In this document: piece by piece, positions 11,553-62,792 of the stretch
Layout: the number at the start of each line of letters is the position of its first letter
How positions within the stretch are numbered: the first letter of the stretch is position 1
NCBI RefSeq assembly: GCF_023507705.1
Contig: NZ_JALBGD010000002.1
Span: 434,001 to 498,000, forward strand
Direction: 5' to 3'
From: Stappia sp. WLB 29
GTDB taxonomy: Bacteria > Pseudomonadota > Alphaproteobacteria > Rhizobiales > Stappiaceae
DNA: 64,000 nucleotides
The notes under the pieces: model-generated
Databases searched by the model: none
What the model was told of the DNA's origin: nothing
Seen by the model: the letters and a program-made list of their open reading frames with translations, nothing else
Program-made: the position numbers and the translations under genes

Positions 11553-11579
11553 GGAACAAGCGGCAGGCCCAGGTGTTCC
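11553..11579. promoter_or_regulatory. Palindromic bidirectional EcfG-type promoter
   Basis: GGAACA at 11553-11558 and its inverted copy TGTTCC at 11574-11579. Read on plus: GGAAC-N16-TGTT (11553-11577). Read on minus: GGAAC-N16-TGTT (11579-11555). It can serve the minus-strand gene at 11512 and, on plus, the ECF sigma gene at 11753. Confidence 0.6.
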
Positions 11580-11669
11580 GTAGATACGCGGACTTTGCGG
11601 AAAAAGCTGCCGGGCCGGCATCGAGACCTGTCGGAACTGCCTGGGGCGCACAGAAAGAGCGGCGGATCG

Positions 11670-11694
11670 GGAACCTTGCCGCTCACGAAAAGTT
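11670..11694 (+). promoter_or_regulatory. EcfG-type promoter for the ECF sigma gene
   Basis: GGAAC at 11670-11674, 16-bp spacer, AGTT at 11691-11694; 58 bp before the ATG at 11753. Confidence 0.5.
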
Positions 11695-11752
11695 GAGTCC
11701 GTGTACGGGGTATCGGGGGCCAGCCAGATCTTGCAGTCGAGGAGGAGCCCCG

Positions 11753-12328
11753 ATGCCGGGAATACGCACACGCGCCCGTCTAAGCGGTCCGCAATCCGAG
11801 ATCGTCCACCTGATCCCCGCCCTGCGTGCCTTCGCAAGGACGTTCTACCGGGAACCGACCCATGCCGACGACCTGGTCCAGGAGACCCTGACGCGCGCGC
11901 TTACCAGCATTCATCAGTTCCGTCCGGGTACCAGCATGAAGTCGTGGCTGTTCACGATCATGCGCAACGCGTTCTACACCAAGATCAAGATCGACATGCG
12001 CGAGGCACCGGGGGCGGTCGACTGCGTGTCCCTGCGCCCGGCCGCCGACCCGACGCAGGAATGGTCGTGCCGCGGGCACGAGATCGCCGCAGCGATCGAT
12101 CGTCTTCCCGAGCAGCAGCGCGAGGTCCTGGTTCTCATCGGCCTGCGCGGCGTCTCCTACGAGGAAGCGACGGAAATCTGCGGCTGCGCGATGGGCACGA
12201 TCAAGAGCCGGCTCAACAGGGCCCGCCACCGGCTGCTGGAAGAGCTGGGGGAGGGCTCGCCGAATTCCTCCGTAGAGCGCGATGCCGACCATCCGGTCGC
12301 CTCCATCCAGACCTTGCGGGCGGGCTGA
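11753..12328 (+). CDS. ECF sigma factor, EcfG-like
   Basis: 191 residues. Region 2 ([20 protein letters not shown], then [16 protein letters not shown]) and region 4 ([20 protein letters not shown], then [16 protein letters not shown]) follow the EcfG/RpoE pattern, including the EICGC-GTIKSR helix-turn-helix. It departs more from consensus than the two ecfG copies at 57.4 and 62.5 kb, for example [10 protein letters not shown] for GASGFSYEEA. ATG at 11753 with GGAGGAG 6 bp upstream. No NepR gene is adjacent. GSR-type promoters upstream suggest it is part of the cascade. The mscS gene follows 42 bp downstream. Confidence 0.85.
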
Positions 12329-17650: not shown

Positions 17651-17821
17651 CGCGTGTGCGGCCCGCTCGCCCTTCCCTCAGCCGCCGGATTAAGCGTGGT
17701 GCCGATCCGCGGTAGATATGATAGGATGTCTTGGAGCGTCAGCCTCAGGGTTTGTGTTTGACGGCGTTCCTGCCGAGTGATGGCTCGCCCCGCGAGTTTT
17801 CGGCCCATGAGGGCCATTTTC

Positions 17822-18874
17822 ATGTCCAACGAACCGTTCATCCATTTCGAAGCGGCGAGCACGCTCGCCGTGGTGGTTTCGTCGCACGAGCCGCTGCTTT
17901 TCCTGACCGAAGACCAGAAGGTGATCGCGGCGAGCACATCGTTCTGCCGGGCCTTCGAAGTCGATCCGGCGACAATTCCGGGCAGACGCCTCAGTGATCT
18001 TGGAAACGGCGAATGGGCGATGCCAAAGCTTGCCTCGCTGCTGAAGGCAACCGCGTCCGGAAGTGCCCAGATCGAAGCCTACGAAATCGATCTCAAGCGG
18101 CCGAACCACGCAACACGAAACCTGGTCGTCACCGCGCAGACCCTCGACGATGGCGACAAGGACCATGTTCGGCTTCTGCTGGCGGTCACCGATGTGACTG
18201 ATGCGCGCGCCGAAGGCCGGCTGAAAGATGACCTCGTCCGGGAAAAGGCGATCCTGATTCAGGAGGTCCAGCACCGGGTTGCCAACAGCCTTCAGATCAT
18301 CGCGAGCGTTCTCATGCAGAGCGCGCGTCAGGTTCAGTCGGAAGAAGTGCGCGGCCACCTGCAGAACGCGCATCACAGGGTCATGTCGATCGCAGCCTTG
18401 CAGCGGCAACTCTCGACGTCCAGCGGCGGCACTGTCGAGTTGCGCACCTACTTCACGCAGCTTTGCGAAAGCCTCGGTGCGTCGATGATCGCCGACCCGC
18501 ACCGGCTCTCGATATCGGTGACGGTCGACGACAGCGCAGTGCAGGCCGACGTTTCTGTCAGCCTGGGTCTTATCGTGACGGAACTTGTGATCAACGCGCT
18601 CAAGCATGCCTTTCCGGAGCAGTCGAAAGGCATGATCGCGATTGCCTACAGCTCGACCGGTGCGGACTGGACCCTGTCGGTGACCGACAACGGAACAGGC
18701 ATGCCCACGGGCAGCGATGCCCCGAAGGCGGGGTTGGGCACCGGCATCGTCGAGGCGCTCGTCAGGAACCGCGAGGCCGAAATCCGGTTGAGCGATGCAG
18801 GTCCCGGGACTGCCGTGACCATCAGCCACCGGAGTTCCCGCGAACTCCCGGCCGACCTTCAACCGGCAGAGTAG
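17822..18874 (+). CDS. PAS-HisKA_2 sensor histidine kinase (soluble)
   Basis: About 350 residues. A PAS-like domain (residues ~15-135, SSHEPLLFLTEDQKVIAAST to LLLAVTDVTDA) is followed by the HisKA_2 box VQHRVANSLQIIASVLMQSA with phospho-His, then the ATPase with N box ELVINALKHA and G1 box VTDNGTGMP. No membrane segment, so cytosolic. HisKA_2 kinases feed PhyR-type responses or single receivers. The start is taken as ATG at 17822; in-frame ATGs lie at 17777 and 17807. The gene and its receiver partner average lower GC (about 63-65% on sampled lines) than neighbours (70-75%) and are bracketed by repeats. Confidence 0.82.
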   Translation: MSNEPFIHFEAASTLAVVVSSHEPLLFLTEDQKVIAASTSFCRAFEVDPATIPGRRLSDLGNGEWAMPKLASLLKATASGSAQIEAYEIDLKRPNHATRNLVVTAQTLDDGDKDHVRLLLAVTDVTDARAEGRLKDDLVREKAILIQEVQHRVANSLQIIASVLMQSARQVQSEEVRGHLQNAHHRVMSIAALQRQLSTSSGGTVELRTYFTQLCESLGASMIADPHRLSISVTVDDSAVQADVSVSLGLIVTELVINALKHAFPEQSKGMIAIAYSSTGADWTLSVTDNGTGMPTGSDAPKAGLGTGIVEALVRNREAEIRLSDAGPGTAVTISHRSSRELPADLQPAE

Positions 18875-18949
18875 GAGCCGTCATGCCAGCAAAGCGCCAT
18901 CTCATCAAAAGCCGGCTAATCTGATCGGCTCAATCGATCCGGGTGACAG

Positions 18950-19345
18950 ATGCATAACGGCAAGGCGGTCGTCCTGGTGGTCGAAGACAGCGCGATCCTT
19001 CGCATGGGGGCTGTCGGCCTGGTGCTGTCTGCGGGCTACGAGGCGTTGGAGGCACACAATGCGGACGAGGCAATTCGCATTCTGGAGTCGCGATCCGACA
19101 TCGATCTGGTGTTCACCGACGTGCAGATGCCAGGGACGATGGACGGCATCAGGCTGTCCCATTACATCCGCGACCGATGGCCTCCCGTGAAGCTGATCGT
19201 CGCTTCGGGCAAGGCGATCCTCGAAGAGAGCAGCCTTCCCGAGGAAAGCCGGTTCTTTACGAAGCCCTACAACGATCATGCGATCGTCGACGCAATGGCC
19301 TGCTTGCTGTCGGCGGGGCGGCCACCTGATCCGCCTGGTCCGTAA
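18950..19345 (+). CDS. Single-domain response regulator
   Basis: 131 residues, receiver only: acidic pair VVEDSAIL, phospho-Asp in LVFTDVQMPG, the switch residue Ser in LIVASGKAIL and Lys in FFTKPYN. No output domain. It is 75 bp downstream of the HisKA_2 kinase, so the two form a cognate pair, probably relaying phosphate or acting by protein contacts. Its last residues (PDPPGP) are encoded by the flanking repeat, meaning its natural end may have been altered by the insertion. Confidence 0.85.
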   Translation: MHNGKAVVLVVEDSAILRMGAVGLVLSAGYEALEAHNADEAIRILESRSDIDLVFTDVQMPGTMDGIRLSHYIRDRWPPVKLIVASGKAILEESSLPEESRFFTKPYNDHAIVDAMACLLSAGRPPDPPGP

Positions 19346-20569: not shown

Positions 20570-22330
20570 ATGTGCGGGCGTGGGCGGCACCGGACACGTT
20601 TGCGCAAACTGTTTTCTGCGTTCTCGCTTGCGCCGGCAACGGCATCCATCACGTCGTATCTGACGTTGCTCGCGGCCGCCATTGCGGTTCCCTTGATCGC
20701 GTTCGCGACCTTTCTCTTCCTGGAGATCGAGACGAACGAGCGAAAGGAGCTGCGCGAACGGGCGACCACGGATGCGCGCGCGCTCGGGCGCATCGTCGAG
20801 CGCCACCTCACCGACATGACGTCGACGCTGCGGCTGCTGGCGGTCTTTCCGGAACTGGAGGACGGCGACCTTCGCGGCTTCCAGAACCGGACGCAGCACA
20901 TCCTGTCGTCGCATTCCATGTATCTCATCCTGATGGACGAGACCGGGCAGCAGTTGCTCAACACCCGCGTTCCCTACGGCACGCCGCTCGGCCCCACTTC
21001 CAATGTCGCCGCGCTGGAAACGGCCCTTTCGAGCGGCAAGACCACCGTCTCCGACATCTTCTTCGGCAAGACCGGGGGAGAGTGGGTGTTCAACGTCACC
21101 ATGCCGCTTCCCGAGAGCCTGCGCGATGTCGGCGCCGCTCTCGTCCTGACCCAGGGCACCGATCAGGTGCAGGCCGTGCTGTCGCGCGAGGCGATCCCGC
21201 CCGGCTGGAGCGCCGCCGTCATCGACCAGACCGACATGGTCATCGCCTCCAGCGGCGCCAGCGGTCTGCCTACTGCGTCCTCCTTTCCCGCCGATCCGCA
21301 CAACGGCTTCAGCCGGTACAGCGATGCGGTGGAGTTCGAGCAGGGCGGCGAGGCGATGGTGAGCGGCTATGCCCGGCTGCCCAGCTTTCCCTGGGTGGTG
21401 GTCGTGTCGGGGCCGGTCGCCTCGGTGCAGTCGTCGGTCGTGACGTGGAAGGTGCTGGTCTTCGGCAGCATCGCCTTCATCGCCATGAGCATGCTGCTGG
21501 CCTATCTGGTGGCCCGCCAGCTCAGCCGGTCCGTGCGGCAGCTGTCGCGAATGGCCGAGCGGATGGGGCGCGGCGAGGTTGTCGCGCCGCTGGAGACGCG
21601 GGTGCTGGAGGTGAACCAGATCGCCGTGGCGCTGTGCAATGCCTCCTTCGACCGGAGCGAGGCCGAAAACCGCGTCCATCTGCTGCTGCGCGAGCTGGTC
21701 CATCGCACCAAGAACGTGCTGACCCTGGTGCAGGCGATCCTGCGGCAGATCGCCCGCCAGTCCGCCACCAAGGAAGAGTTCCAGGAGGCGGCGGACAGCC
21801 GGCTGCAGGGCCTGGCCCAGTCCGTCGAGCTGCTGGCCCAGGAAAACTGGTACGGCGTGTCGATGCACAGCCTGATCGACCAGCATCTGACGACCGTCGG
21901 CGTGTCGCTCGACCAGCGGGCAATCGACGGCGAGGATTTCGTGCTCGGGGTCAGCGCGGTACAGAATCTCGGCCTCGTGCTGCATGAGCTTGCCACCAAT
22001 TCCATCAAGTACGGGGCGCTGCAGAGCCCGCACGGATGCATCCGCATCTCCTGGAGGAGCGCCGGCGACCGGCGGGACGAGCCGGGCGTGCTGCTGGAGT
22101 GGACGGAGGAGGGCGGACCGCCCGTCTCGCCGCCCGAGCGGAGCGGCTTCGGCTCGGTGATCATCGAGCGGCATGCGGCGGCGGCCTTCTCGGCCAGCGT
22201 GACGCTGGAGTACCGGCCGGACGGGCTCTACTGGTCGCTGCATGCGCCCTGGTCGGCGCTGCGCAAGGACGGCAGCGCGAACCCGCTCGATGCGGTCGCG
22301 GAGAACCTCACCTACAAGGCCGCCGAATAG
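20570..22330 (+). CDS. HWE-family membrane sensor histidine kinase
   Basis: About 586 residues. TM1 (about 27-50), a periplasmic dCache/PAS-like sensor (about 55-290), TM2 (about 295-317), a HAMP-like linker, then LVHRTKNVLTLVQAILRQIA with the phospho-His and the HWE signature (HELATNSIKYG and WTEEGGPP). HWE kinases commonly phosphorylate PhyR. ATG at 20570 has GAGGG only 1 bp upstream, so a start at the TTG near 20596 is possible. The topoisomerase gene follows 6 bp after. Signal unknown. Confidence 0.85.
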   Translation: MCGRGRHRTRLRKLFSAFSLAPATASITSYLTLLAAAIAVPLIAFATFLFLEIETNERKELRERATTDARALGRIVERHLTDMTSTLRLLAVFPELEDGDLRGFQNRTQHILSSHSMYLILMDETGQQLLNTRVPYGTPLGPTSNVAALETALSSGKTTVSDIFFGKTGGEWVFNVTMPLPESLRDVGAALVLTQGTDQVQAVLSREAIPPGWSAAVIDQTDMVIASSGASGLPTASSFPADPHNGFSRYSDAVEFEQGGEAMVSGYARLPSFPWVVVVSGPVASVQSSVVTWKVLVFGSIAFIAMSMLLAYLVARQLSRSVRQLSRMAERMGRGEVVAPLETRVLEVNQIAVALCNASFDRSEAENRVHLLLRELVHRTKNVLTLVQAILRQIARQSATKEEFQEAADSRLQGLAQSVELLAQENWYGVSMHSLIDQHLTTVGVSLDQRAIDGEDFVLGVSAVQNLGLVLHELATNSIKYGALQSPHGCIRISWRSAGDRRDEPGVLLEWTEEGGPPVSPPERSGFGSVIIERHAAAAFSASVTLEYRPDGLYWSLHAPWSALRKDGSANPLDAVAENLTYKAAE

Positions 22331-54205: not shown

Positions 54206-55804
54206 TCAGATATCCTTCAGCGGGATCATCATGCGCACGCGCACCCCGTCGGGGCGATGCTCGCGCTCCAGCCGGCCGCCCAGCTCGCCGCGGATATTGG
54301 CGTCGATGAGCCGCGTACCGAAGCCGGCGCTGCCCGAAGGTTCGACCGGCGCGGAGGAGGTCTCCACCCAGTCGAGTTGCAGCTCCCGGTGCCTGCGCTT
54401 GCCGACGAGGGTCCAGGAAATCCGCAGGTCGCCTTCGCCGCGGGCGATGCCGCTGTATTTCAGCGCGTTCGTGGCGAGTTCGTGGAAGGTGAGGCCGAGC
54501 GCCTGGGTGGTGCGCTCGTCGAGCAGGACCTTGGGCCCCTCGATCCGCTCCTCGCCGAAATCGGGGCCCAGCACCTGATTCAGCTCGGTCGTCAGCAGCT
54601 CGCGCAGGTCCGCCCGGCGCCAGTGCGAGCGGGTCAGCATGTCCTGGGCGTTCGCCATCGCGTGCAACCGGGCGGAGAAGGACTGGGAGAACTCGTCGAT
54701 GCTTTCGGAATTCGCGGCGGTCTGGCGGGCGATGGCGAGCACCCTCGCGATGGAGTTCTTGATCCGGTGCTTCATCTCCTGGAGCATCAGGTCCTTTTCC
54801 TGCACCGCCTTTTGCGAGGCGGCCTGCAGGGCGCGGGCCGCCTGCACCGACTTGATCTGGAACCGCGTCGACATTGCCAGCGCCAGCGCCAGCAGCAGCG
54901 AGATCGCGCCCGTTACCATCGAATAGAGATGCTGGTCCCGACCGCGGAAGTCCGGTGTCGCATGGGCGCTGAACGTCCATTTGCGCCCGGCGATATCGAC
55001 GGTGCGCTGGGTCTTCAGGTTCTTGAAGGGCTCGCTGTCGCCGAAGCCTTCGGAGCGGAAGAGAACGACCGCCTCCGCTTCGGTCGTGTCGGCGGTCTGG
55101 AAGGTCAGCGGCAGGCGGGTCGAGCCGCCGAGCGCGGCGGCATGCAGGTCGCCGGCGCGGAAGGGGGAATAGACGAAACCGGCGATCGGACCGTCCGCGG
55201 CCGCGCGGAAGGGAATGTAGACGAGGAAGCCGGCCTGCTTGTCCTCGGTGATCTCCTGGGCGAGCTCGACGGGCGCGCTGGCGCGAGGAGCGCCGCTTTC
55301 CAGCGCTGCCAGCATTGCTGCGCGCCGGTTGGGCTCGCTGAACATGTCGAAGCCGAGGGCGGCGCGGTTCATCTCGTCCGGCGGCTCCAGCATGACGATG
55401 GGCGTGCGCTGCTCCAGCGCCGTGTCCGGCCAGACCACCCGGTCGATCCCGTAGGCTGCGGCGATGTCGCGTTCGGCCCCGGCCTCCTCGCCGGTGCGGA
55501 TCAGCCTCGCATAGCCGATGCCGCGGATGCCCTCGTAGTCCTTCTGCAGGCCCAGCGAGGCGGTGAAGCGCGCGAAGGCATCGCGCGCCACTTCGCTCTC
55601 GTGGGCGGCGAAGAAGGCATGGGTGGAAACGAGCAGGGCGATGTGCTGGCGGGTGCGGTCGACGACACGGTCGGCTGCGGCCTGCGCGATGGTTTCGAAA
55701 CGGATCCGGTCGGCGGCGTTTTCCGCCCGGTACACGACCATCGTCATCCCGGCGCCGGCCAGGGCGACGACGATCAGAATGCTCGGAGGCAGAAGCCGGA
55801 TCAC
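54206..55804 (-). CDS. CHASE-HWE membrane sensor histidine kinase
   Basis: About 532 residues. TM1 (about 5-25), a CHASE domain (about 40-270, with RGIGYARLIRTGEEAGAER and GFLVYIPFRAAADG), TM2 (about 285-305), then the HWE kinase core: MKHRIKNSIARVLAIARQTA with phospho-His, HELATNALKYSGIARGEG and LDWVETSSAP, GFGTRLID. All kinase motifs are intact. GTG start at 55804 with GGAAAG 6 bp upstream. Located next to csbD-phyR, it is the best candidate here for the PhyR kinase. Confidence 0.9.
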   Translation of the reverse strand: MIRLLPPSILIVVALAGAGMTMVVYRAENAADRIRFETIAQAAADRVVDRTRQHIALLVSTHAFFAAHESEVARDAFARFTASLGLQKDYEGIRGIGYARLIRTGEEAGAERDIAAAYGIDRVVWPDTALEQRTPIVMLEPPDEMNRAALGFDMFSEPNRRAAMLAALESGAPRASAPVELAQEITEDKQAGFLVYIPFRAAADGPIAGFVYSPFRAGDLHAAALGGSTRLPLTFQTADTTEAEAVVLFRSEGFGDSEPFKNLKTQRTVDIAGRKWTFSAHATPDFRGRDQHLYSMVTGAISLLLALALAMSTRFQIKSVQAARALQAASQKAVQEKDLMLQEMKHRIKNSIARVLAIARQTAANSESIDEFSQSFSARLHAMANAQDMLTRSHWRRADLRELLTTELNQVLGPDFGEERIEGPKVLLDERTTQALGLTFHELATNALKYSGIARGEGDLRISWTLVGKRRHRELQLDWVETSSAPVEPSGSAGFGTRLIDANIRGELGGRLEREHRPDGVRVRMMIPLKDI

Positions 55805-55905
55805 GTCATCTTTCCATCGCGCCGGGTCCTTCGTTTGCGCAGCAGCCGGGCCTGCGCTCCGTCCCGCTGCGGCCCCTGCGGAAACGGTACGTCTGCAGTC
55901 CCGGC

Positions 55906-55930
55906 GGAACCTTTTTCCCGGCCGGGGGTT
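55906..55930 (+). promoter_or_regulatory. EcfG-type promoter for csbD
   Basis: GGAAC at 55906-55910, 16-bp spacer, GGTT at 55927-55930; 45 bp before the ATG at 55976. Confidence 0.65.
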
Positions 55931-55975
55931 CGCTTCATGCGAGGTCAACTCGCGTTGAAGTACAAGGAGAGCTTC

Positions 55976-56173
55976 ATGAACTGGAACCAGATCGAAGGCA
56001 ACTGGGAACAATTCAAGGGCAAGGTCCAGGAGCGCTGGGGAGACCTCACCGGCGACGACATGGACGTGATTGCCGGCAACCGGAAGCAGCTGGTGGGCAA
56101 GATCCAGGAGCGCTACGGCATGGCGGAAGAGAAAGCCGAGCGCGAGGTCGACGACTGGCTCGGCCGCTCGTAA
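55976..56173 (+). CDS. csbD: CsbD-family stress protein
   Basis: 65 residues: MNWNQIEGNWEQFKGKVQER, WGDLTGDDMDVIAGNRKQLV, GKIQERYGMAEEKAEREVDD. The classical CsbD pattern, a small soluble helical general stress protein. ATG with AAGGAGAG 6 bp upstream and a GSR promoter in front. A 13-bp-stem hairpin follows. Confidence 0.92.
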   Translation: MNWNQIEGNWEQFKGKVQERWGDLTGDDMDVIAGNRKQLVGKIQERYGMAEEKAEREVDDWLGRS

Positions 56174-56196
56174 GCCTCCCGGCGCTCGCATGAAAT

Positions 56197-56260: not shown

Positions 56261-57055
56261 TCAGGCCGCGGCTTCGACGGTCTGGTCGAAGAACAGGGCC
56301 TGGCTGATCAGCGCCCGCACCATGTCGGGATTGAACGGCTTGGTGATCAGGAAGGCCGGCTCGGGGCGTTCGCCCGTCAACAGGCGCTCGGGGAAGGCGG
56401 TGATGAAGATCGCCGGCATCGGCTCGCTCTTCAAAATGTCGTTCACCGCGTCGATCCCCGAGCTGCCGTCGGCCAGCTGGATGTCGGCGAGGATCATCCG
56501 CGGCTTCTTGCGGGCGAACAGCTCGACCGCCTCCTTGTGGGTGCGGGCGACGCCGCAGACCCGGTGGCCCAGCTCCGTCACGATATGTTCGATATCCATG
56601 GCGATCAGCGGCTCGTCCTCGATGATGAGGATGTCCGTCGCGATCTGCTGGGAGATGTTGCGGGCCGCGTCCGACAGCAGGACCTCCACCTCGTCGACCG
56701 GCACGTCGAGGATCTGCGCGGTTTCCTCCGGCGCGAAGCCTTCCACCGATGTCAGGAGAAATGCCTGGCGCTCCGGCGAGGGGAGCATGGACAGGTTCGC
56801 CGTTGCCCGGCGTTCCCAGGCGAAGGGCGAATCGAGGGGCGGAATGTCCATCTGGACGGATCCGAAGACGGCCGCGAAGACCTTGTACAGGGAGACGCGG
56901 TCGTTGCCGGTCTCGGGAAACGAGGAAACGTCCGCAATCAGCGTCTCCAGTGTGGTGGCGACGTAGGCATCGCCCGACTGCTGCGACCCTGTCACCGCTC
57001 TTGCGTATCGACGCAAGTAGGGAAGATGGGGCGCAATGCGGTTCGAAAGTGGCAT
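56261..57055 (-). CDS. phyR: PhyR, general stress response anti-anti-sigma factor
   Basis: 264 residues. The N-terminal sigma-factor-like domain (about 1-135, LPYLRRYARAVTGSQQSGDA to PVDEVEVLLSDAARN) mimics EcfG; the C-terminal receiver carries IIEDEPLIAMD, phospho-Asp191 in MILADIQLADGSSG, and ITKPFNPD. When phosphorylated, the sigma-like domain binds NepR and frees EcfG. ATG at 57055 with a GGAG-like site. A perfect GSR promoter drives it, giving positive feedback. It is divergent from nepR-ecfG, the canonical arrangement, and the only PhyR in the window. Confidence 0.96.
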   Translation of the reverse strand: MPLSNRIAPHLPYLRRYARAVTGSQQSGDAYVATTLETLIADVSSFPETGNDRVSLYKVFAAVFGSVQMDIPPLDSPFAWERRATANLSMLPSPERQAFLLTSVEGFAPEETAQILDVPVDEVEVLLSDAARNISQQIATDILIIEDEPLIAMDIEHIVTELGHRVCGVARTHKEAVELFARKKPRMILADIQLADGSSGIDAVNDILKSEPMPAIFITAFPERLLTGERPEPAFLITKPFNPDMVRALISQALFFDQTVEAAA

Positions 57056-57099: not shown

Positions 57100-57124
57100 A
57101 ACGCGGGCCTGAGAGAAAAGTTCC
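57100..57124 (-). promoter_or_regulatory. EcfG-type promoter for phyR
   Basis: Minus strand GGAAC (57124-57120), 16-bp spacer, CGTT (57103-57100); 44 bp from the phyR ATG. No matching motif was seen on plus for nepR-ecfG. Confidence 0.75.
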
Positions 57125-57189: not shown

Positions 57190-57414
57190 ATGAACGGAAC
57201 GAAGAAGACGGGACCGGGAACGACGATACCGGCGAAGACGGGGCGCCCCGCCGTCTCGGAAGCGCATGAGGCTGCGAGCCAGGAATACATCACGCAGCGC
57301 CTGCGGGAGCTTTACGACACCGTGCAGGAGGAGGGCACCCCGGACCGGTTCCTCGACCTGCTGGAACAGCTCGACGAGGCGGAGAAGGCGGCGTCGGAGA
57401 AGCCCGGCAAATGA
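57190..57414 (+). CDS. nepR: NepR anti-sigma factor
   Basis: 74 residues. The NepR core ITQRLRELYDTVQEEGTPDR, FLDLLEQLDEAEKA is close to consensus; the tails are disordered. It binds EcfG and, under stress, PhyR. Its stop overlaps the ecfG start (ATGA), so the two are co-translated. The ribosome site (TTGGG) is weak. Confidence 0.9.
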   Translation: MNGTKKTGPGTTIPAKTGRPAVSEAHEAASQEYITQRLRELYDTVQEEGTPDRFLDLLEQLDEAEKAASEKPGK

Positions 57415-57941
57415 CGGCGGAAACTGCGCTTTCCTCGGCCGATTTCAAGCGCGAGATGCTGGCGCAGCTTCCGGCCCTGCGGGCCTTCGCCGTATCGCTG
57501 TGCGGGCGCGCCGACCTGGCCGACGACCTCGTCCAGGACACGATCCTCAACGCCTGGAAGGCTAGGGCGAGCTTCATTGCCGGCACCAACATGCGCGCCT
57601 GGCTGTTTCGCATCCTGCGCAACTGCTTCTACAGCCTCTTGCGCAAATCCTCCCGCGAAGTCCAGGACGAGGACGAAAAGCTCGCCGGGCAGTTGTCCGT
57701 GGCGCCCAGCCAGCACGCGTCCATCGCCATGAACGAATTCCGCCACGCGCTCGATGCCCTGCCGAGCGACCAGCGCGAGGCGATCGTGCTCGTCGGGGCC
57801 TCCGGCTTTTCCTACGAGGAGGCGGCCGAGATCTGCGGCTGCGCCACCGGAACGCTGAAAAGCCGCGTGCACCGGGCGCGCGCGCGGCTGCGGGAGCTCA
57901 TGGCGCTTCCCGAGGACGAGGCGGCGGGCTCTTCCGTCTAG
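57411..57941 (+). CDS. ecfG: EcfG general stress sigma factor (copy 1)
   Basis: 176 residues. Region 2 LPALRAFAVSLCGRADLADD, LVQDTILNAW, and TNMRAWLFRILRNCFYSLLR; region 4 LPSDQREAIVLVGASGFSYE, EAAEICGCATGTLKSRVHRA. ECF15-type sigma factor controlled by NepR and PhyR; recognises GGAAC-N16/17-CGTT promoters. Overlaps nepR. Converges with the holin-like membrane protein gene 2 bp away. Confidence 0.93.
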   Translation: MTAETALSSADFKREMLAQLPALRAFAVSLCGRADLADDLVQDTILNAWKARASFIAGTNMRAWLFRILRNCFYSLLRKSSREVQDEDEKLAGQLSVAPSQHASIAMNEFRHALDALPSDQREAIVLVGASGFSYEEAAEICGCATGTLKSRVHRARARLRELMALPEDEAAGSSV

Positions 57942-60324: not shown

Positions 60325-61977
60325 TCAGTGCATCGATGCGGAAGCCTGATGCGCGGGTCTCGGGTGCAGCGGGATCTCCAGCCGGGCCGTCGCCTCCTCC
60401 ATGCCGCAGGTCGCGTCGAGCTGGTGGAGATAGGCATGGACCAGGCGCGAGCGCAGCGAGGCCGGCGTGCCCGTCTCGTTGCCGTCCAGCGTGTCGTTGA
60501 TCTGGCTGGCGCCGGAAATCACCATGGCGATCCTGTCGGCCCCGGCCAGTTCGATGGTGATGACCTCTCCCGGCAGCAGGCAGTCGAACCGCGGCGGCAA
60601 CAGCTCGGCCAGGATGAAGGCGAGCGGGATCGCGCGGTCGAGGTCGATCTCCGCGGCATTGGCGCCGGCATTGGTCTGGATGCGGACCCGGCCCTGCGGC
60701 AGCGTTGCCGGTCCCCGCAAGGCCTCCACCACCTCGTGCACCAGGGCCGTCAGCGCCACATTGGTGCCCTCGGTCGAGGCGTAGGACACCCGGTAGGCGG
60801 CCGAGATCGCCAGGATCCGCTCCAGCGTCACCCGAAGGGCCGCCTTCTCGCGCGGGCCCGTCGCGTCGCGGCGCTGCATGCTGACCAGGCTGATGATCAT
60901 CTGCAGCGTGTTCTTGATGCGGTGATGCAGTTCGCGGCTCAGCCGGCGCTGCTCGGCGAGAGCGGCCTCGGTGTCGTGGGTGCGCCGTTCGATCCGGTCG
61001 GCCATCATGTCGAAGGTCACGCCGAGCAGGTCGATCTCCGGCGCGGCGCCCGCCAGCTGGCCGACGCGCGCACGGGTGTTTCCCGTGCCGTACTGGCGGA
61101 AGGTCGAATAGATGTGGCTGAGATAGCGCAGCAGGAATCGCTGGATGCCGTAGCGCAGCACCACGAAGACGACAGCCAGCAGGATGAGCGGCGGAAGCAG
61201 CGCGCGCAGCACCGTCAACCACAGTTCCAGCCGGTGTTCGGGCGACCGGCTGGCGGTGACGACCCGGTAGTCGGTGCCGGGCAGCACGCTGGAGCCGACG
61301 AACCAGCCGCGATCGCTTTCGGAAAAGTCCGCCCCGTCCGCGCGGGTTTCGCCGACCACCTGCAGGAAGTTGCCGATGTCGTTCTCCTCGTAGACGTGGG
61401 AGGCGAGCACCGCACTGTTCTTGTCGACGAGGGCAAAGCCGATATTGGTCGCCGCCGTCGCGGTGATCGGGGCGATCAGCAGCGTCTGCGGCCGCAGGCC
61501 GATATCGATGCGGGTGCCGCTGGCCTCGTTGGTCCTGGAGATGGTGATGGTCTTGGCGGAAGGTTCGGAAACGGCGTCGCCCGGCGTTCCGAGCGGGCGC
61601 TGCACGATCTGGCCGTCCTCGCCGAGGCCGAGGTTGCACATGGGCACCTCGCCGCGGAAGATGGCAAGCTCGGTCGCCTCGATCAGGTCCTCGCGCATGG
61701 CGGAGAACACACGACGGCAATCTCCCAGGACCTGGGAGTCCTGGGAGGTCAGCGCGCTGGCATAGCCTTCGGCACGCGCAATCGCCTTGGCGCTCGACTG
61801 TCCGATCAGGCGGGCATAGTCCAGGAAGCGCCTGTGCTCTTCCTGGGAGCGTCGCTCGAGATCGGAATAGGACAGCAGGAAGGCGAGAGCGGCGAGGGGG
61901 ATGAGGGCTGCAGCGATATGCGCGAACAGCCGTCGATCAAGCCGGGTGCTGTTGGGCGGCAGTTTACTCCATGGCAC
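60325..61977 (-). CDS. HisKA_2 membrane sensor kinase with degenerate ATPase domain
   Basis: 550 residues. TM1 (about 17-37), a periplasmic sensor (about 40-250), TM2 (about 255-276), HAMP-like linker, then a normal H box LHHRIKNTLQMIISLVSMQR (His 351/352). The ATPase part is not normal: the N box is AELLPPRFDCLLPG with no Asn, the G1 box is VISGASQI without the D-x-G-x-G, and no G2 loop is recognisable. So it may accept or sequester phosphate but is unlikely to bind ATP as usual. ATG at 61977 overlaps the ecfG end by 14 bp, making the operon nepR-ecfG-kinase. Confidence 0.82.
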   Translation of the reverse strand: MPWSKLPPNSTRLDRRLFAHIAAALIPLAALAFLLSYSDLERRSQEEHRRFLDYARLIGQSSAKAIARAEGYASALTSQDSQVLGDCRRVFSAMREDLIEATELAIFRGEVPMCNLGLGEDGQIVQRPLGTPGDAVSEPSAKTITISRTNEASGTRIDIGLRPQTLLIAPITATAATNIGFALVDKNSAVLASHVYEENDIGNFLQVVGETRADGADFSESDRGWFVGSSVLPGTDYRVVTASRSPEHRLELWLTVLRALLPPLILLAVVFVVLRYGIQRFLLRYLSHIYSTFRQYGTGNTRARVGQLAGAAPEIDLLGVTFDMMADRIERRTHDTEAALAEQRRLSRELHHRIKNTLQMIISLVSMQRRDATGPREKAALRVTLERILAISAAYRVSYASTEGTNVALTALVHEVVEALRGPATLPQGRVRIQTNAGANAAEIDLDRAIPLAFILAELLPPRFDCLLPGEVITIELAGADRIAMVISGASQINDTLDGNETGTPASLRSRLVHAYLHQLDATCGMEEATARLEIPLHPRPAHQASASMH

Positions 61978-62542
61978 TGATCTTCACCGTTGTACCGGGA
62001 GAAAGGGCGAGGACAGCTTCCACGGCTCGATCCGGTCCGAACTCGCTCGTCGACTCTGTTCCCATGATGACGGCCAGCCGGGCGCGGGCGCGGTTGACGC
62101 GACTTTTTACTGTGCCGATGGCGCAGCCGCAAATCTCGGCGGCTTCCTCATAGGAAAAGCCGGAAGCCCCGATGAGGATCAGCGCTTCGCGCTGGTCGTC
62201 GGGAAGCTGGTCGAGAGCCCGGCAGAAATCGTCGAGATCGAGATGCCCCGTCTGATTGGGATGGGAGGCGAGCGTTGCCGAATAGCGCCCGTCCACGTCC
62301 TGCACCTCGCGCTTGCGCTTGCGATGCGTCGAGTAGAGCGTGTTGCGCAGGATCGTGAACAGCCAGGCCTTCATGTTGGTGCCGGGCTCGAAGCGGCCGA
62401 GATTGGACCACGCCTTCATCAGGGCTTCCTGGACCAGGTCGTCGGCGCGGTCGCCCATCCCGACCAGCGAGGCCGCGAAGGCGCGCAGGCTGGGAATGCA
62501 GGCGACCATTTCCTCTTTCAGCTCGAAGCTGTGCTCGCTCAT
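61964..62542 (-). CDS. ecfG: EcfG-type sigma factor (copy 2)
   Basis: 192 residues. Region 2 IPSLRAFAASLVGMGDRADD, LVQEALMKAW, TNMKAWLFTILRNTLYSTHR; region 4 LPDDQREALILIGASGFSYE, EAAEICGCAIGTVKSRVNRA. Closer to the classical EcfG sequence than copy 1, with a C-terminal extension (about 165-192) rich in acidic and hydrophobic residues. The ATG shares a base with the nepR stop (TAATG). Co-transcribed with nepR and the degenerate kinase. Confidence 0.93.
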   Translation of the reverse strand: MSEHSFELKEEMVACIPSLRAFAASLVGMGDRADDLVQEALMKAWSNLGRFEPGTNMKAWLFTILRNTLYSTHRKRKREVQDVDGRYSATLASHPNQTGHLDLDDFCRALDQLPDDQREALILIGASGFSYEEAAEICGCAIGTVKSRVNRARARLAVIMGTESTSEFGPDRAVEAVLALSPGTTVKISAME

Positions 62543-62733
62543 TACCGGGTCTCCCCCTCGGAACCGCCGTTTTCGTCCAGTTTCTTCAGCAGGTCCTCGA
62601 ACCTTCGGGGCAGGGGCTGGGTCAGCACCTCGTTGTAGTAGGTTTGCAGCTGGTTGCTGATGCGAGAGTGGACATCGCTTTCCGATGTGTTCGGTGGCGC
62701 TTTCTTCAGGGACTTCTCGCTGTAATTTAGCAT
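62542..62733 (-). CDS. nepR: NepR anti-sigma factor (copy 2)
   Basis: 63 residues: VHSRISNQLQTYYNEVLTQP, LPRRFEDLLKKLDENGG, a NepR core with PLPRRFEDLL in place of PxPDRFLDLL. ATG at 62733 with AAGGA upstream and a perfect GSR promoter 35 bp away, so this operon is autoregulated. No phyR gene is adjacent, unlike copy 1. Confidence 0.88.
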   Translation of the reverse strand: MLNYSEKSLKKAPPNTSESDVHSRISNQLQTYYNEVLTQPLPRRFEDLLKKLDENGGSEGETR

Positions 62734-62767
62734 AGGCAGAAAAATCCTTCTTCAGCTCCGCACCGTA

Positions 62768-62792
62768 AACGCGCGGTGTCGGACTTGGTTCC
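62768..62792 (-). promoter_or_regulatory. EcfG-type promoter for nepR-ecfG copy 2
   Basis: Minus strand GGAAC (62792-62788), 16-bp spacer, CGTT (62771-62768), followed by T; a perfect match. Confidence 0.75.

Follow-up and report, generated by a model that had tools for sequence, protein, structure and literature searches.

A predicted PhyT-type pseudokinase in the second nepR-ecfG operon of Stappia sp. WLB 29

The second nepR-ecfG operon and the phyR locus

The window analysed here, a stretch of 64,000 nucleotides from Stappia sp. WLB 29 (contig NZ_JALBGD010000002.1, positions 434,001 to 498,000), carries near its end a minus-strand nepR2-ecfG2-pseudokinase operon spanning 60325-62733, with the following features:

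60325..61977, minus strand: phyT-type pseudokinase gene (550 aa, GTG start)
60355..60702, minus strand: degenerate catalytic/ATPase domain, residues 426-541, without N-box Asn, DxGxG or G2 glycines
60922..60924, minus strand: codon of the predicted phospho-accepting His352 (RELHHRIKN), with HHRxKN in 38/38 proteins
61964..62542, minus strand: ecfG2, EcfG-type sigma factor of 192 aa (Pfam sigma-70 r2/r4)
62542..62733, minus strand: nepR2, anti-sigma factor of 63 aa (Pfam NepR, 42 bits; TAATG coupling)
62768..62792, minus strand: GSR promoter GGAAC-N16-CGTT of nepR2-ecfG2-phyT (motif search)

The nepR2 stop and the ecfG2 start are fused in TAATG (62544-62540), and the ecfG2 and pseudokinase genes overlap by 14 bp. 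Coordinates and motif search thus bore out the original prediction of a nepR-ecfG-kinase operon coupled by these two junctions and preceded by a perfect GSR promoter. The relatives found by name were Stappia indica SBBC 49 (91%) and Stappia sp. TSB10P1A (80%), the host being Stappia-like and marine, and no publication naming both Stappia and EcfG was found in the literature collection searched.

The operon had also been described as lacking phyR, which holds for the nepR2 cassette itself and is misleading for its surroundings: phyR lies about 3.3 kb from the pseudokinase gene, in what is one composite locus. The features of this part of the window and its kinase matches are:

56261..57055, minus strand: phyR, predicted target of the pseudokinase (NCBIfam PhyR family, 379 bits)
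57100..57124, minus strand: GSR promoter of phyR (motif search)
57190..57414, plus strand: nepR1, start approximate (Pfam NepR, 52 bits)
57411..57941, plus strand: ecfG1 (Pfam)
54206..56191, minus strand: CHASE-domain HWE kinase with an intact N box (HELATNALKY), candidate kinase for the system; its true start is probably downstream of the listed ATG
18263-18466, 21692-21916, 54533-54778 and 60706-60933: HWE_HK/HisKA_2 matches in the 64-kb window

The GGAAC-N16/17-CGTT pattern gave 10 matches in the window, two of which are one palindromic site, against 0.54 expected from shuffles. Upstream of nepR1-ecfG1 there is no perfect GSR promoter, only one imperfect GGAA-N-GTT match at 57021. With its 10 perfect GSR promoter matches and its four kinase matches the window is a stress-response island; its HWE_HK/HisKA_2 matches are the only ones that the 4.7-Mb genome gave at E up to 0.001.

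Orthologues of the pseudokinase were found in 12 of 87 genomes of the family, namely 7/14 in its own genus and 3/3 and 2/45 in two other genera, while eight further family genomes gave weak matches only. Eleven of the 12 copies are intact, the one in G003 being in two pieces. ecfG2 lies directly upstream of the pseudokinase in all 12 genomes, the exact 14-bp overlap recurs in all 11 intact copies, and nepR is present in 12/12 loci, where its junction with ecfG reads TAATG in six, TGATG in two and neither in four. A GGAAC-N15/18-CGTT site stands upstream of the nepR2-type operon in every one of the 12 loci, the chance expectation being about 0.2 as judged from the one 4.65-kb locus tested. The composite locus with phyR is likewise found in all 12 orthologue-bearing genomes, and consists of phyR and nepR1-(ecfG1), then phyT-ecfG2-nepR2 tail to tail; ecfG1 is absent in G001 and G003 (a single EcfG match each), and an HWE kinase of the 54206 type lies beyond phyR in 8/12. 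When distant PhyT-bearing regions were fetched more widely, phyR was seen near nepR/ecfG-phyT in 10 of 11, the last one (L115) being cut by a contig edge; phyR is divergent in eight regions and co-oriented in two (L109, L110), and nepR was not matched in two of the 11 (L111, L112). A nepR2 cassette beside a resident phyR locus is an unusual arrangement. In the relative with the divided copy (L153 in G003), the pseudokinase gene is broken just past the H box in a genome that is also without ecfG1.

Loss of the ATP site behind a conserved H box

The pseudokinase is laid out as an N-terminal transmembrane (TM) segment, a predicted periplasmic region, a second TM segment, a HAMP-like linker, a HisKA_2 DHp domain (Pfam, 58.4 bits; cut-off 22.3) and a degenerate CA domain. 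Hydropathy gives two strong TM peaks at residues 17-35 and 256-274 and a third, weaker one at 166-184. Its H box, HRIKN, keeps the HRxxN motif. A profile of the pseudo-CA region aligned end to end with active HisKA_2 CA domains (hhalign; probability 98.5%, E 3e-15), placing AELLPPRFD against TELVINALKHA, the N box of a HisKA_2 kinase from the same genome that looks active, ISGASQIND against TDNGTGMP at G1, and LRSRLV against LGTGIV at G2, where the Gly residues are lost. The N-box register was the same in a phmmer comparison with EL346 (PDB 4r39; E 0.007). Because of this end-to-end alignment, the C-terminal region is, as judged from sequence, a CA domain that has lost its N, G1 and G2 residues, and the alignments confirmed the earlier description of a kinase with an H box, without the N-box Asn and without D-x-G-x-G at G1. 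Membership of the active HisKA_2/HWE kinase class, with its intact N-box Asn, G1 and G2, was rejected. The Pfam search returned no HATPase_c match in the pseudokinase, which is weak evidence because the intact HWE kinase at 54206 scores just 13.3 bits, below the cut-off. An AlphaFold2 model of the cytoplasmic part, built on a three-row alignment (the window protein, L005 and L006), was too poor to use (pLDDT 48.8, pTM 0.37).

The same combination recurs in an alignment of 38 proteins, comprising the window's protein, 10 close and 27 distant relatives, the last from six families of the order. The distant relatives are the top matches that were assigned loci, found with a profile built from degenerate proteins, so the set may favour such proteins. 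HHRxKN is kept in all 38, within RELHHRxKN except for LELHHR (L016), KELHHR (L044) and REIHHR (L045). The N-box Asn is found in 0/38, its column being occupied by A (14), P (12), H (4), T (2), R (2) and Q, Y, S and D (one each), and DxGxG at G1 in 0/38; L040 has a DxGxG string, but ahead of the N box. In 37 of the 38 the gene immediately upstream, in the same orientation, is ecfG; the open frame of the other (L048) runs off its contig.

Twenty lower-ranked matches of that profile search, hand-picked rather than random, served as controls; eight of them gave no H box by scripted pattern, and the boxes were read by eye. Of the 19 controls with no ecfG beside them, every one retains the Asn and 17 retain DxGxG (exceptions L145 and L146). 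The sole ecfG-linked control (L147), with phyR and ecfG present, is without either. Some controls have a nearby match to the phyR query (E 1e-8 to 1e-16), taken as other receiver domains. Since 19/19 controls away from ecfG keep the Asn, loss of the predicted ATP site is linked to ecfG, and the broken ATP-binding domain suggests an old shared trait rather than damage. The profile alignment and the absence of Asn and DxGxG from 38/38 proteins support the proposed pseudokinase. Whether such substitutions are normal in active family members, a doubt raised with the original prediction, has a divided answer: among ecfG-linked relatives they are usual, and PhyT, the counterpart of these that has been studied, acts as a phosphotransferase according to the published model; none of the 19 controls away from ecfG has lost the Asn. 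Because all 38 aligned proteins are pseudokinases with a kept phospho-accepting H box, the sensor-kinase label on the ecfG-linked 'histidine kinase' of this order is probably wrong.

Selection appears to have been maintained on the gene. In the eight comparisons made (10 possible, G075 and G072 left out), omega, estimated by simple counting with no correction beyond Jukes-Cantor, was below 1 in all four domains, which argues against decay. Values for the DHp domain (0.02 to 0.33) were lower than those for the pseudo-CA domain (0.11 to 0.92) in 8/8 pairs and below those for TM2-HAMP in 6/8. In the predicted periplasmic part, Cys 87 and Cys 114 (window 61636-61719) are invariant in the 11 intact orthologues and may form a disulfide or serve as a redox sensor; in PhyK, too, a periplasmic Cys is important (PMC5964349, in extract).

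A probable PhyT-type relay and brake, and the alternatives

PhyT (formerly PhyP) of Sphingomonas melonis Fr1 is, in the extracts of its published account, a membrane-anchored protein encoded at the phyR locus, with an HRxxN motif and a degenerate ATPase domain, which takes phosphate from SdrG-P, passes it to PhyR via a conserved His, and binds unphosphorylated PhyR at the membrane, thereby sequestering it (PMC5898713). The pseudokinase matches this described PhyT/PhyP type, likened by the description of PhyT rather than by its sequence: it has a HRxxN DHp domain, an apparently degenerate ATPase domain, a place at the phyR locus, and a membrane anchor with a periplasmic part predicted from hydropathy peaks. 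PhyT expression is EcfG-dependent (PMC6599016, in extract), and a GSR promoter sequence lies upstream of the pseudokinase operon. Unlike PhyT, the pseudokinase shares its operon with a second pair of nepR and ecfG genes and lies outside the phyR intergenic region, and no regulator with the PFxFATG motif of SdrG was found in the window genome. RsiC (S. meliloti), RpaI_4707 (R. palustris TIE-1) and Bab1_1673 (B. abortus) are PhyP-type proteins (PMC5898713), comparable with the window protein by published naming, not by sequence.

PhyK of Caulobacter crescentus, as far as the extracted account goes, shares the periplasmic domain, the HisKA2 subfamily and phosphotransferase action; it takes phosphate from MrrA, gives it to PhyR and works with its ATP-site residues mutated (PMC5964349). 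The NCBIfam PhyK model (NF051872) matches residues 215-458 of the pseudokinase (E 4.5e-33), but identity as a PhyK equivalog was rejected at 114.6 bits against a cut-off of 750, and PhyK keeps the conserved CA domain (PMC5964349) that is absent here with the loss of the N, G1 and G2 residues. The Brucella PhyK is described as soluble and, in the extract of its report, as not regulating the GSR under the tested conditions (PMC12354254). ChpT and Spo0B are without a membrane sensor part and belong to other pathways. Both are phosphotransferases derived from degenerate kinases (PMC5898713).

A phosphate donor was sought through the PFxFATG(G/Y) motif that SdrG and MrrA carry (PMC5964349, in extract). 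PFxFATG had 0 matches in the window genome, and the best matches of a FATGUY-receiver search of the genome were a 226-aa open frame and PhyR. From 52 receiver matches in the genome, the seven that were read, all short receiver proteins (L097-L102 and 18950-19345; open frames of at most 156 aa), are without PFxFATG; a further single-domain regulator could lie within one of the longer open frames. Across the order, PFxFATGY occurred in 52 of 297 genomes, whereas the reversed control matched one. The exact pattern is present in 10 of the 27 distant PhyT-type genomes and absent from 17, so either PhyT-type proteins are loosely tied to this donor or the exact pattern is too stringent. The window genome is thus one of several without it, and the motif search may have overlooked a divergent donor. 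A looser 20-base pattern matched 28/87 family genomes, including 3/12 cassette holders (G074, G078 and G084), and these matches are unreliable because the reversed control matches 16/87. One regulator in the window is placed beside a kinase:

18950..19345, plus strand: single-domain response regulator, speculative candidate phosphate shuttle, beside an intact HisKA_2 kinase at 17777-18874

In this plus-strand pair (17777-19345) the single-domain regulator comes after a HisKA_2 kinase whose N and G1 boxes are intact; the likeness to LovK-LovR is one of layout only.

Because the window protein shares the anatomy of PhyT, its best reading is probably that of a PhyT-type histidine phosphotransferase derived from a degenerate HisKA_2 kinase, acting as a relay and as a brake on PhyR. 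Such a protein is predicted from its residues to be unable to use ATP. By analogy with PhyT, other kinases would charge a response-regulator Asp, from which phosphate would pass to His352 and on to PhyR, and unphosphorylated PhyR would be held at the membrane, braking the response. Lacking a phyR gene itself, the cassette would depend on the resident PhyR, encoded 3.3 kb away. PhyR-P would bind NepR1 or NepR2, freeing EcfG1 and EcfG2. As the operon has a GSR promoter and nepR1-ecfG1 no perfect one, EcfG activity would raise EcfG2, an amplifier, together with two brakes, NepR2 and the PhyT-like protein. In the extracts available, a constitutive EcfG drives a second nepR-ecfG operon in Sphingopyxis (PMC7083833) and in S. 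melonis NepR2 exerts negative feedback (PMC6599016); the likeness of the circuits is an analogy, not proof.

Against a relay stands the apparent absence from the window genome of a known donor of the SdrG/MrrA type. The same absence favours a protein that is a brake only, binding, sequestering or dephosphorylating PhyR while HWE/HisKA_2 kinases charge PhyR directly. An HWE kinase with an intact N box adjoins phyR, with a similar one beyond phyR in 8/12 close loci, and knock-out of PhyP/PhyT in S. melonis was, in the extracted account, possible only in GSR-impaired strains (PMC5898713). However, retention of the H-box His in 38/38 proteins is more than pure sequestration needs, and a brake without a relay is an unlikely, though not negligible, reading. 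The brake first proposed for this protein fits as PhyR sequestration in the manner of PhyT, but not as a phosphatase-like action, since phosphatase activity of PhyT on PhyR was tested in vitro and, according to the same extracts, none was detected (PMC5898713).

The other roles in the original prediction fared less well. A phosphate sink, draining PhyR or a shuttle regulator to a terminal regulator, has a precedent in LovK-LovR, which drain MrrA in Caulobacter (PMC5964349, in extract), and a single-domain regulator exists at 18950-19345. Yet this regulator is 41 kb off and beside another kinase, and the pseudokinase travels with ecfG and phyR, with no single-domain regulator seen in its operon, making a sink improbable. 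Dimerisation with an active HWE kinase and phosphorylation in trans, for which the window offers three further HWE/HisKA_2 kinases whose N boxes are intact, is slightly less credible still: the conserved neighbour is ecfG, an HWE kinase is near in only 8/12 close loci, and no such case was found in the portions of the GSR literature consulted. Least probable is that the gene encodes an active kinase whose nucleotide site is unusual, or that it is a pseudogene in decay. HWE G1 boxes are odd, with W and E at the D and first-G columns in the two here, and 2/19 controls are without DxGxG, but the N-box Asn and G2 glycines of the pseudokinase are also gone; a broken copy exists in G003, but omega is below 1 in all domains. 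The roles first proposed are not new, as PhyT relay and sequestration and the LovK-LovR sink are already published; proteins of this kind have been described under the PhyT type. In this family PhyT is accessory (12/87 genomes) and apparently donor-less in the window genome, which would make the relay and brake roles separable.

Ancestry of the EcfG2 cassette

In an EcfG tree of 43 rows, for which 10 of the 27 distant PhyT-type loci were used, EcfG1 grouped with seven PhyT-less EcfGs of the family, and the other side of the starred branch (96/95) held EcfG2, the 10 distant PhyT-linked EcfGs and four PhyT-less family EcfGs. The best tree also joins EcfG2 to the distant PhyT-linked EcfGs to the exclusion of those four, but this grouping is essentially unsupported (53/0). 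The AU test rejected a clade of EcfG1 plus EcfG2 (p-AU 0.0008), the clade to be tested having been defined once the tree was known, and with it a recent nepR-ecfG duplication within the lineage. Since EcfG2 shares its side of the tree with PhyT-linked EcfGs from other families, the 'second' operon resembles the GSR operon usual in those families, without phyR and set beside a resident locus. Its origin may be transfer or ancient duplication with loss, both compatible with the tree. We tentatively consider, without thinking it the likelier account, that nepR-ecfG-phyT is an accessory cassette, foreign or anciently split, which has lost its own phyR and uses the resident PhyR, its PhyT being fed by a donor outside the SdrG/MrrA type or acting as a brake alone; the regulator at 18950-19345 may be an example of such a donor. 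The window also encodes a third EcfG-like sigma factor (11573-12328, plus strand), which is 47% identical to EcfG2.
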